In this document: piece after piece, positions 4,959 through 35,863 of the stretch | Layout of the letters: every line of letters starts with the position of its first letter | How positions within the stretch are numbered: the stretch's first letter is position 1 | Virus record (IMG/VR): IMGVR_UViG_3300005613_000149 | Coordinates: 1 to 41,158 of that record | DNA length: 41,158 nucleotides | DNA from: a virus | Reading direction: 5' to 3' (one strand) | Program-made: the position numbers and the translations under genes | The notes under the pieces: generated by a model | Database searches by the model: none | The model's input: only the letters and a program-made list of their open reading frames with translations | What the model was told of the DNA's origin: nothing

Positions 4959-7022
4959 TTAGCTCAATCCGCCTGTCCAAAGTACATTTGATTTATAGCC
5001 CCAGCGGTATAATCCCAATGAATAGCTTGTCGCTACTGCATTATTCTTTCGTATGCTAGCCACAGCTGAAGCCAGAGCGCTCGCAGCCGGCATGCTACTT
5101 CCTCCACCACTAGGTGCAGCAACTGCCGTCATTCCTGTTATCCAATAGATATAGCTACTGCCGCCTAATGCCCATAGATAAAAGTCAAAAATTGGGCCAG
5201 AGGCTGCTGCTATTGCTGTCGCCTCTTCATAAACAGATGTGGCATTTGATACGAAGAATTTAAAGTTTGAACCAAAGTTGAAAATCAATCCGACTGCATT
5301 GGTTCCTGATGTCAAAGTCATAGGTGGGGAACCCGCCTGTGCTGAATCCGTCATACCTATAATTATATCCACATCATTATCCACAGCATCATCAAGAGAA
5401 AATGTGGCGTGGAACATCCAAGCATCACTGCCGCCAGGATTTATATCGAATGGTGCTTTTGTAGATATTTGCACATAGTCAGTTGCAACTGCAGTCCCAG
5501 TATCCATAAGTAATCTTCCAGCATCTGCTGCAGATACATTTATAGTAGCACCTGCACTACCTCCCTTACGCAGGTATGTGTGGGGGTATATCTCTACGCT
5601 GTCCGTAGTATGTATGGCAGCCCAATAGTTTGCGAAGCTGACGTCCATGTCAGCACCTTTGGCAGTGAGCATTGCTGCATTTAATACGCTGTTTTTTTGC
5701 AACTGGTGGTCATAGTTTTCTAAGATGGCTCGTGTTGGTAAAGTAACTAAATTTGGGAAGTAACTTGCTGGTGCTGCAGCTTGATTTTCAGGTGCTACTG
5801 TGTATCCATTTGCGAAAGCAAAAATACCATCAGAATCTACTATCGTACGACCATTAGGGTAAGATGCGCTGCGGCCAAACATCACACGATGTGGAGATGT
5901 TGCCTCGATCTTAAACTGTTTTGGTGTGCCATCTCCTACTTCGAAATCCCCTGTGTAAACGAGAGAACCAACGATGGTTAGAGTTCCCGTGAAGGTATCA
6001 TCGCCTCTAGATAGAAGGGTGTTTACTTTATTGTATAGTGCGAGGAGTTGATCGTGAATACTACCCGCTGGCATTTGAAGGGCAGCACCGGTTGGGGAAG
6101 CTCTTGTAAGTCCAGTGATAGGACGACCACCGATAATTTCAGAGCCACCTGCAACTGAAGCTGTGCCTGGTTCTGCATAAAGTTCGATCAGTTGCTTAAT
6201 GGCTTCTCTTGGTGAGCCTGCACGGATGCTGTGATAGGCATGGGTGCTATCACGACTCGAGTCATAAGAGTTTTTTAGTAAAGTGTATGTCGTACCTGCA
6301 TCATTGGTGTCAATTGCTACCCAGTCTGCTCTTCGTCCGCCAAGATTTGCAGTATAATCAGAGCTGTATCTGATATTATCGTAATCTCTAGAGCTACCAC
6401 AGATTGCATCATAGGTGTAAAGGGTTCTGATCTCACCATTATTATCCAGCAAGATGTCAGCCAATAGGACTCGAGTGGAAGCCAAAGGCGCTCGTGCGGT
6501 TGCAGGTGGAGCAGCATCTGTGCCTACCAATATCTCAAAGTGGAAGCTCTCCAACTGTCTGAAGCTTATTTGGTTGTTGAGGGCATCTACTCTAATGTCA
6601 GAGAGGTTCGTATCAAAGGCGGCAAATAGAGATAGCCAAGCTTCTCCAGCTGTTATGGAAGTTGCAACAAGAGACCCATCTCCAACTGCATCAATGCTAA
6701 GACCTTCTTCCGTATCTCCAAGATTTGTCAGTGAGACAGTTGCTACCGAGTTGGCGCCTGAGCCTGCGTTAACATTGATGCGCTTTCCAAAACCATCGCG
6801 GGCCGTGCCAAAGGATACATTAACCTTATCTACTGCGTTTTTGGTGACCACCAGTCCTGATAGTATACCCCCATATTGGAGGGCATTAGCTGGGTCAGGA
6901 TCTTGACTCATAGCACCTTCCACAGCCAAAAATCTTTCAGCTGCAATCAGGTCGTCATAGATGGTATCCATCTCGCCTTCATTTACAACTTGGCCCAGGT
7001 ACCAATCTTGTCTGTTAGCCAT
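4959..7022 (-). CDS. Tail fibre protein
   Basis: 687 residues, one of the distal fibre proteins. The N-terminus (NRQDWYLGQVVNEGEMDTIY) is of the baseplate-anchoring type found in contractile phage fibres. The middle is Gly/Ala/Thr-rich beta structure, with a collar-like stretch around residues 340-420 (SRGDDTFTGTLTIVGSL) typical of beta-helical fibre shafts. The C-terminal 200 residues look like a jelly-roll or lectin-like tip (VEIYPHTYLRKGGSAGATIN and onward). TTGGAG precedes the ATG. Expected role: receptor contact. There is no visible chaperone domain; the next gene may provide that. Confidence 0.7.
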   Translation of the reverse strand: MANRQDWYLGQVVNEGEMDTIYDDLIAAERFLAVEGAMSQDPDPANALQYGGILSGLVVTKNAVDKVNVSFGTARDGFGKRINVNAGSGANSVATVSLTNLGDTEEGLSIDAVGDGSLVATSITAGEAWLSLFAAFDTNLSDIRVDALNNQISFRQLESFHFEILVGTDAAPPATARAPLASTRVLLADILLDNNGEIRTLYTYDAICGSSRDYDNIRYSSDYTANLGGRRADWVAIDTNDAGTTYTLLKNSYDSSRDSTHAYHSIRAGSPREAIKQLIELYAEPGTASVAGGSEIIGGRPITGLTRASPTGAALQMPAGSIHDQLLALYNKVNTLLSRGDDTFTGTLTIVGSLVYTGDFEVGDGTPKQFKIEATSPHRVMFGRSASYPNGRTIVDSDGIFAFANGYTVAPENQAAAPASYFPNLVTLPTRAILENYDHQLQKNSVLNAAMLTAKGADMDVSFANYWAAIHTTDSVEIYPHTYLRKGGSAGATINVSAADAGRLLMDTGTAVATDYVQISTKAPFDINPGGSDAWMFHATFSLDDAVDNDVDIIIGMTDSAQAGSPPMTLTSGTNAVGLIFNFGSNFKFFVSNATSVYEEATAIAAASGPIFDFYLWALGGSSYIYWITGMTAVAAPSGGGSSMPAASALASAVASIRKNNAVATSYSLGLYRWGYKSNVLWTGGLS

Positions 7023-34290: not shown

Positions 34291-34746
34291 ATGCAAACGC
34301 AATGCAAACTCAGCAAACGGTTTAATCCTGAGCAGTTCTGGAAAAAGTGCAAATCAGGCACCATTGCTGACTGTTGGCTATGGCAAGGCTATATTGGTTG
34401 GGGTGGCTACGGCATAGAATTTTTGGCAGATGGTACCAATGAACGAGCGCACCGCATTGCGTACATGTTAACCACTAATATGTACCTAAAAAGTGGCGAA
34501 TGTGTTCTACATAGGTGCATAAAACGTGACTGCATAAACCCGCATCACTTATATAAAGGTAAACATACTGGCCAAATCATCTTCGGGAGCCAGCATGGTC
34601 GATCTAAATTAACTGAGGACAAGGCGCGTATGATTCGAGCCCTTCATTCCAAGGGCGAAACTGTCGTGTCGCTAGCTGCACGGCACGGCGTTAGCCCATC
34701 GACCATATCGCGTCTTGTCCTCTTCCAAACCTGGCGACACATTTAA
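34291..34746 (+). CDS. HNH homing endonuclease with C-terminal HTH
   Basis: 151 residues. The catalytic HNH core is visible: CWLWQGYIGWGGYGIEF, RAHRIAYML, then ECVLHRCIKRDCINPHHLY, giving the V-x-H-x-C ... C-x-NP-x-HL signature of phage HNH nucleases (residues about 27-92). After a linker come residues about 107-150 (KLTEDKARMIRALHSKG, then SLAARHGVSPSTISRLV), a helix-turn-helix for target recognition. It is a free-standing homing enzyme on the strand opposite to the late genes, inserted between a neck gene and the IPT gene. Its usual target would be the same gap in related phages lacking it. Confidence 0.85.
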   Translation: MQTQCKLSKRFNPEQFWKKCKSGTIADCWLWQGYIGWGGYGIEFLADGTNERAHRIAYMLTTNMYLKSGECVLHRCIKRDCINPHHLYKGKHTGQIIFGSQHGRSKLTEDKARMIRALHSKGETVVSLAARHGVSPSTISRLVLFQTWRHI

Positions 34747-35167
34747 TGAAAATGAAATAGCGCATTCTCCTATTGCCCCCCAACTGCAACTATGCTAAGC
34801 TCACGCTCGCGGGGTCCGGGGGCCTATCTTATATTTCTATGATCTGGCTATAAATAAAGACAATTCCTCATCCTATTTTTTGAATAAGAAATCGTCTCTA
34901 ACGATGATGTGATATATGGGAAGAAAGGCGCAGCAGAGCAGAACAAATGGTATGATTGGGGATTACGTGTTCTACCTTTAAACTACATCGCCATTATGGC
35001 GATGGCTGGTAACGATCCAGCTTCTCGTCCTTATAAATGGATAACCCAATCAAATTCGGTCCCTACCCCATTCTTGCGAATAAGAACTCTGCAGCTATCT
35101 ATTTTATGGCACATATATCTCTGGCTTGCAAGCCACATTATTTGGCATGATGTGTCCCCATCTGTCT
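34747..35167. other. Gene-free gap within HNH island
   Basis: A 421-base gap between two convergent genes. Short open frames here lack ribosome sites and recognisable content. It contains a GC-rich inverted repeat GCCCCC/GGGGGC (34775-34780/34818-34823), the permuted tRNA-like element at 34953-35052, and a 14-base palindrome TGGCTTGCAAGCCA (35122-35135). Confidence 0.6.
34953..35052 (-). tRNA. Candidate circularly permuted tRNA
   Basis: On the - strand the parts of a tRNA appear in swapped order. First the T-arm: GCTGG, loop ATCGTTA, CCAGC (35021-35005). Then the 3' acceptor strand CATCGCC (35004-34998) and discriminator A34997. Then, after four more bases, the 5' acceptor strand GGCGATG (34992-34986), T8 and A9, D-stem GTTT, loop AAAGGTA with A14, GG and A21, D-stem GAAC and A26 (34968). 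Acceptor pairing is perfect. Neither half has a matching partner at normal tRNA distance. The outer ends pair over 8 bp, TGATTGGG/CCCAATCA (35052-35045/34960-34953), where the anticodon arm would lie. The anticodon stem itself is poor (CGT/ACG, then mismatches or a bulge), so no amino acid is assigned. A non-tRNA four-way-junction RNA is the alternative. Confidence 0.5.
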
Positions 35168-35863
35168 CTATTTGGGTGCTGTGATTCTAAAGCCCGTTTT
35201 CGTTGCTTGTACCAAAAGTTTGGCTACCTCTTTGCTGTAAGCTGGCATAATCGTTTTCAATTTGTAAAATACTGGCTCCCACACGGGTCTGGCTTTTGGC
35301 GTCACGGTTATGGTGCTGTTGATTTTCACATTGCCAGATTTTTGCTTGTCGCTTTTTGCACCACGGATCACTGCCAAATAAGCTGCCATGGCTGGAGTAA
35401 GCGTGACCTGCACGGGTACCGGATTTTCCATCTGTGTGGCAATTTTGGCAACAGGGATGCCCGCGTCTGCTTGATCCCCTTTGGCACCATAGACTTTCTT
35501 CGGGTCAATCTCTACATTATAACCACCTGTCTTTCTGCCTTTGTCCCGCATTGCCCGAACAACAACACTATCCCTTAAGGTAAGAGACCGCTTTAAACTG
35601 GCTGCACTTGGATATCTACGTCGGGCCGGCCGCAATCCAGGCTTCTTCCCATGGGCATAAGCTTCCAAGGTGCCCTTTGCATGTCCATAAGAAGCTGCTT
35701 CGTACCCTTTTTTTACAGCTTTGGCTGCCTTTAGGGATAATTTATGAACTCCCCTCTTGTTTATGGCTTGCAATTGCCCACCCTTGGTTAATTTGTGAGC
35801 ATATCTTAGGAAGTCCGCTGCCCACCCACCGGGAATTTTTAGCTCAAATGTCTTCCTAGCCAT
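35168..35863 (-). CDS. Neck/tail-completion protein, HK97 gp10-like
   Basis: 231 residues. The layout matches HK97 gp10-like neck proteins: a basic helical N-terminus (FELKIPGGWAADFLRYAHKL, then KLSLKAAKAVKKGYEAA), a turn with SLKRSLTLRDSVVVRAMRDK, beta strands, and a final helix KTIMPAYSKEVAKLLVQ. It is very rich in Lys and Arg, which could contact DNA at the neck. An AGGGGG site precedes the ATG. It is the last neck gene before the HNH insertion. Confidence 0.65.
   Translation of the reverse strand: MARKTFELKIPGGWAADFLRYAHKLTKGGQLQAINKRGVHKLSLKAAKAVKKGYEAASYGHAKGTLEAYAHGKKPGLRPARRRYPSAASLKRSLTLRDSVVVRAMRDKGRKTGGYNVEIDPKKVYGAKGDQADAGIPVAKIATQMENPVPVQVTLTPAMAAYLAVIRGAKSDKQKSGNVKINSTITVTPKARPVWEPVFYKLKTIMPAYSKEVAKLLVQATKTGFRITAPK

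Follow-up and report, generated by a model that had tools for sequence, protein, structure and literature searches.

A tRNA-like element with circularly permuted arms in a phage late operon, probably a divergent YrlA-like tRNA mimic

YrlA (Y RNA-like A) is a bacterial Y RNA of 90–150 bases in which both ends form a large stem and a tRNA-like domain resembles the D, T and acceptor arms of tRNA; it is modified by DusA and TruB, is bound by Rsr and tethers PNPase (PMC8394870). The tRNA-like domain of YrlA is not cleaved as an anticodon nuclease substrate, and it has been suggested that it acts as a competitive inhibitor (PMC7790460). Phage Y RNAs or Ro-like proteins have also been mentioned (PMC12282133, PMC7765460). 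Permuted tRNA genes are known from Cyanidioschyzon, prasinophytes, the nucleomorph of Bigelowiella and Thermofilum. In these, a bulge-helix-bulge lies at the termini, and splicing and ligation proceed via a circular form (PMC3978253, PMC4033280).

Here, the window is the whole stretch of DNA that was analysed, a viral record 41,158 bases long and possibly incomplete. On its minus strand, at 35052–34953, it holds tRNA parts in circularly permuted order, namely a T-arm, a closed acceptor hairpin and a D-arm (Table 1). The element sits in the structural (late) operon, and not within a tRNA cluster. The original prediction had described a T-arm and 3′ acceptor strand followed by a joint, the 5′ acceptor strand, TA and a D-arm, with helices perfect or nearly so and an 8-bp outer helix joining the ends, and all of this was found in the sequence. 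The outer helix is Watson-Crick throughout (8/8), the T-stem pairs at 5/5 positions, the acceptor stem at 7/7 and the D-stem at 4/4, with one G-T. A repeat search returned the outer and acceptor arms as inverted repeats. The internal loop is large and asymmetric, with 16 bases on one strand and 4 on the other. The ACG before the variable loop can pair with CGT at 34967–34965 to give 3 bp of an anticodon-like stem, a pairing that appears when the core alone is folded. If it forms as modelled, the small hairpin of the longer loop strand would resemble an anticodon arm.

Table 1. Parts of the element, listed 5′ to 3′ along the minus strand; read in succession, and with the possible hairpin set aside, they make up the complete element.
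Feature	Sequence	Position	Strand	Basis
Basal (end-to-end) helix, 5′ strand	TGATTGGG	35045–35052	−	Inverted repeat and predicted fold
Internal-loop strand, holding a possible small hairpin	TTATCCATTTATAAGG	35029–35044	−	
Possible hairpin	TCC-ATTTATAA-GGA	final A at 35028	−	Seen in minimum-energy fold
ACG and four-base variable loop	ACG-AGAA	35022–35028	−	Sequence; identity to viral tRNA-Thr
T-arm	GCTGG-ATCGTTA-CCAGC	35005–35021	−	17-mer present in viral tRNAs
Acceptor-like stem, 3′ strand	CATCGCC	34998–35004	−	7/7 pairing with 34992–34986
Loop closing the acceptor hairpin	ATAAT	34993–34997	−	Sequence
Acceptor-like stem, 5′ strand	GGCGATG	34986–34992	−	7/7 pairing
TA (positions 8 and 9) and D-arm (D-arm alone, 34983–34969)	TA-GTTT-AAAGGTA-GAAC	34969–34985	−	TAGTTTAAAGGTAGAACA in viral tRNAs
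A26, CGT and internal-loop strand	A-CGT-AATC	34961–34968	−	Sequence; CGT pairing in core-only fold
Basal helix, 3′ strand	CCCAATCA	34953–34960	−	Inverted repeat

Judged by sequence, both halves of the element are genuine tRNA arms, because the verbatim D-arm and T-arm sequences sit mainly in real viral tRNAs. The T-arm 17-mer occurs in 48 stretches of viral contigs, most of them within tRNAs called by ARAGORN (Thr, Phe, Met, Ile and Asn types), and the D-arm 18-mer, TAGTTTAAAGGTAGAACA, in 26 stretches, 23 of which lie within such tRNAs. The 3′ half, including the variable loop and T-arm, is identical to the viral tRNA-Thr of contig L056 at 29 of 30 bases and, by inspection, the D-arm region agrees with another viral tRNA-Thr at 19 of 21. 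The T-loop ATCGTTA, earlier named as a weak point, is normal and frequent in a class of viral tRNAs, in a set that was partly selected by this same T-arm, and it occurs with other stems too. More widely, the T-loops ATCGTTA, ATCGTTC and AGCGTTA, in which A54/U58 replace U54/A58, recur in viral tRNAs of contigs L016–L089, among tRNAs for Thr, Ile, Val, Phe, His, Met and Asn.

The rotated fold of these tRNA parts is real and not a product of chance. All four helices (outer, acceptor, T and D) appear in the minimum-energy RNA fold (RNAfold), with a z of −4.1 that no shuffle equals. The opposite strand folds too (z = −4.6), so folding alone cannot choose the strand; it is the tRNA identities that choose it. 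A descriptor of the permuted tRNA (7/7 acceptor, 5/5 T-stem, 4/4 D-stem, A14..GG..A21) gave 0.033 matches per dinucleotide-shuffled window, and its strict form, with the acceptor and T-stem all Watson-Crick, gave none in 1076 shuffles. The descriptor was picked after the element had been seen, and the evidence of homology therefore weighs more than the shuffle counts. The basal helix, 8 Watson-Crick bp between the flanks, is modestly above chance (p = 0.031 against shuffled flanks).

A permuted-tRNA covariance model, R1, was trained on 26 rotated viral tRNAs that all lack the T-arm of the element. It scores the window element at 42.5 bits (E 1.9e-15), and its second-best match in the window, at 19.4 bits, falls on the junction of two tandem tRNA-like genes near 2233–2301. 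Standalone elements of other viral contigs reached 49.8 (L039), 40.2 (L043), 40.2 (L038) and 38.9 bits (L022), so that the window element scores like that group. R1 also matches many tandem complete tRNAs, some at about 40 bits, and its score alone is thus no proof of one molecule. A Watson-Crick 7/7 acceptor match between different tRNAs was found in 52 of 156,168 pairs, and no outer tRNA halves were recognised on either side of the element by ARAGORN or by eye; both points argue that the halves in the window belong together, and it is unlikely that two different tRNAs were fused. Of 56 rotated constructs submitted to ARAGORN, 4 were called as tRNA, with specific trims only, and the interpretation does not rest on these calls.

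The same architecture was found in other viral contigs. A scan of 0.85 Mb of tRNA-rich viral loci with the strict descriptor, excluding stretches that overlap a complete tRNA, gave matches elsewhere in L024, L038 (with a duplicate in L052), L043, L076 and L080; looser settings added L039, L051, L059, L022 and L082, and the element of L064 was recognised by its flanking sequence and read manually. Together these make eleven further elements of tRNA-rich viral contigs with the same rotated arms as the window element. Among these 12, 82 of 84 acceptor positions are in standard pairs versus 51% with partners swapped (computed directly, since alignments of the elements are imperfect), which indicates that the acceptor stem is maintained while its sequence varies. 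The loops closing the acceptor in the related elements have 4–7 bases, with one of 20. When genomes were scanned for these arms in permuted spacing, there were no matches. The L064 element (6057–6090, plus strand), YrlA-like, with ACCA after the acceptor strand and the 20-base loop, looks as if it were derived from two tandem tRNA genes. On the minus strand of L068, near 2304, there is a tRNA-like stretch with acceptor, D-arm and T-arm and almost no anticodon arm.

The Rfam model of YrlA (RF02553) scores the elements of L038, L080, L076 and L024 at 40.5, 39.4, 35.4 and 28.7 bits, respectively, and it also matches in the L039, L043 and L064 records; all these scores are below the gathering score of 69. 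A control, the YrlA of Gordonia phage Boopy, which lies in a tRNA cluster 1.2 kb after an annotated Ro-like gene confirmed as TROVE, likewise stays below that score, at 52.1 bits. Values of about 20 bits or less are uninformative, as tandem tRNAs in ordinary genomes also reach E ≤ 0.1. Given that RF02553 recognises several cases and that Y RNAs have been reported from phages, the arrangement is not unprecedented in phages. The window element itself was not matched by RF02553 in a search of 200 bases with E up to 10, and a search of the whole record returned the tandem tRNA junction at 2235–2299 as the only match. Rfam as a whole gave no relevant match on the element, either at the gathering threshold or with E up to 10. 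No TROVE (Ro) gene was found in the 41,158-base contig or in the contigs of the related elements, all of them partial; the Rsr of the host could serve. Two more phages taken as Ro/Y RNA controls, Listeria phage P100 and Vibrio phage pir03, yielded neither a TROVE nor a YrlA match.

A common frame links about 20 small elements of tRNA-rich viral contigs. It consists of a covarying 7-bp basal stem, mostly AGG....CCT, with CAGCAA 2–4 bases past the 5′ strand and TGT at the 3′ end. The pattern has 31 matches, against 0–7 per shuffle, and is found in L022, L023, L024, L038, L051, L057, L059, L064, L076, L080 and L082. The frames enclose a YrlA-like tRNA mimic in some cases, a complete tRNA-Arg in L080 and unrelated sequence in others, and no Rfam family was seen to cover them. 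From their sequences, these framed elements seem to form a modular family of viral small RNAs that share an end module. The frame AGGNNNN..CAGCAA...CCTGT, common to many of the other elements, is absent from the window element.

Searches with several proteins and with DNA found no close relatives of the phage; they gave a single distant contig (L002) that has the tail region, with 32% identity over part of one protein, too far for a comparison of the spacer. Head proteins are about 30% identical in named phages, and a search of phages and plasmids with the spacer sequence found nothing. The gap that holds the element also holds an HNH homing-type endonuclease gene (34291–34746, plus strand), opposite to the late genes, according to PHROG matches. 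Elsewhere on the plus strand, a tRNA at 2192–2266 (Rfam 51.4 bits in a sensitive search, missed by the fast gathering search) has an odd anticodon arm, CCAG-CTTAATCCC-CTGG, and is called Ile(AAT) by ARAGORN. Directly behind it, at 2272–2350, lies an unannotated tRNA-like gene with acceptor GTTCCCG/CGGGAAC, D-arm, T-arm with TTCGAAG, and an anticodon stem CTATC/GATGG with a 13-base loop. A tRNA-like stretch at 1503–1577 has acceptor GGTCCTG/CAGGACC, a T-arm with TTCGATA and an anticodon-like stem GAGAT/ATCTC that closes a 9-base loop. Abnormal anticodon arms are thus found in several of the phage's tRNA-like genes.

One alternative is a genuine tRNA gene, circularly permuted or in two pieces, from which a decoding tRNA would arise via a circle or from two annealed pieces. 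With the break between positions 28 and 29, such a tRNA would have the anticodon stem CGTCC/GGACG and the loop ATTTATAA. The 3′ half stands upstream of the 5′ half with complementary acceptor strands, as in permuted tRNA genes, the acceptor stem has its full 7 bp, the D- and T-arms are identical to those of working viral tRNAs, RNAfold predicts the TCC/GGA hairpin, and the ARAGORN calls in rotated constructs as well as permuted tmRNA, a bacterial precedent of a two-piece RNA, speak for this reading. However, no bulge-helix-bulge, the signal of the known permuted tRNAs, was found by inspection at the termini, where there is the 16/4 internal loop and no 3-base bulge pair around a 4-bp helix, and archaeal-type splicing was dropped for that reason. 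Joining the halves leaves 3 bp of the anticodon arm in register, and 5 bp are gained only with the 28/29 break, at the price of an 8-base loop; the ARAGORN calls need chosen trims, the one displayed includes mismatched positions in its anticodon stem, and the related elements have no consistent anticodon arm. Descriptions of permuted tRNAs are otherwise confined to algae, a nucleomorph and an archaeon, and no report of one from a phage was found in the literature searched. A permuted tRNA gene in the algal or archaeal sense is not supported, given the missing bulge-helix-bulge and the lack of a clear anticodon arm, and we regard a decoding tRNA as very unlikely. Were it true, a functional tRNA without bulge-helix-bulge would extend permuted tRNAs to viruses. 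Permuted tmRNA is not supported either, as neither an Rfam tmRNA match in the window nor a tag-coding part was seen.

It is unlikely that the element is a relic of a tandem tRNA duplication, in which head-to-tail copies lost their outer halves and the inner halves were left without function, given that all the inner helices are intact (7/7, 5/5, 4/4) with no trace of outer halves, that other viral contigs show the arrangement with acceptor stems that differ in sequence and yet pair, and that the basal helix is left unexplained. Such an origin does agree with the abundance of tandem tRNAs in viral tRNA clusters and their matches to the permuted model, with the ACCA retained after the acceptor strand in L064, as expected for tandem tRNAs, and with the other irregular tRNA-like genes of this phage. 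A 91-codon plus strand frame (ORF 34909–35184) spans the element, and the helices might be chance hairpins in that gene or in a spacer, with an accidental likeness to tRNA; but the frame has no homologue and its codon score is in the range of non-coding frames, while the strict descriptor is not matched in shuffles and the identity to tRNA arms is exact. The tRNA-arm identities, together with the lack of a homologue and of a coding signal, in effect refute this explanation.

Taken together, the element is probably a divergent YrlA-like tRNA mimic, that is, a gene for a Y RNA carried by a phage. We hold it as probable rather than as a proven member because RF02553 does not match it, the CAGCAA frame and a TROVE gene are absent, the basal helix is modestly supported and no close relative was found. 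It would be transcribed with or within the late transcript as a small non-coding Y RNA, which would fold as drawn, with a basal helix from the paired ends and a body that mimics the D, T and acceptor arms of tRNA. Because a short loop joins its two acceptor strands, the RNA is expected to be neither aminoacylated nor processed at its ends like an ordinary tRNA. Its tRNA-like body may work by mimicry and bind tRNA-handling proteins, either as a scaffold for the host Ro protein (Rsr) on RNA-decay enzymes or a ribonuclease, or as a decoy that occupies tRNA-binding enzymes such as anticodon nucleases, so that tRNAs would be spared and translation protected during infection.

Viral tRNA-mimicking Y-type RNAs would then extend beyond what RF02553 detects, with about a dozen in a small set of tRNA-rich contigs. 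In some of them, arms match those of working tRNAs exactly, in keeping with an origin in tandem tRNA genes. Mimics of this kind would provide an RNA counter-defence if they inhibit anticodon nucleases or divert RNA decay. Searches for permuted tRNAs in phages can be expected to pick up Y RNAs.

Viral tRNA-Thr(GGT), tRNA-Ile(GAT) and tRNA-Val(UAC) with the T-loop ATCGTTA have D- and T-arms nearly identical to those of the element, from which they differ as ordinary linear genes, mostly in tRNA clusters and with CCA encoded. The permuted tRNAs of Cyanidioschyzon, prasinophytes, Bigelowiella and Thermofilum share with it the 3′ half in first place and a short spacer between the acceptor strands, whereas they have a bulge-helix-bulge, none being seen in the element, which also has no complete anticodon arm in evidence. 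Permuted tmRNA, a bacterial permuted gene, likewise places the 3′ acceptor strand before the 5′ one, but it has a tag-coding part, not seen in the element, where a canonical D-arm is present. Compared with YrlA (RF02553), the element has the T-loop ATCGTTA instead of UUCRA, an acceptor stem of full tRNA length and the 16/4 internal loop, and it sits in a late operon, with no Ro gene seen nearby and no match to the model. In both, the ends pair in a basal stem, here of 8 bp, and a tRNA-like domain follows the same permuted order of T-arm, closed acceptor-like hairpin and D-arm. The sequence of the element also offers potential targets of tRNA-modifying enzymes, namely U55, here within an A54/U58 loop, and a U in the D-loop. 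As in YrlA, a short stem replaces the anticodon stem, and both RNAs are carried by phages.
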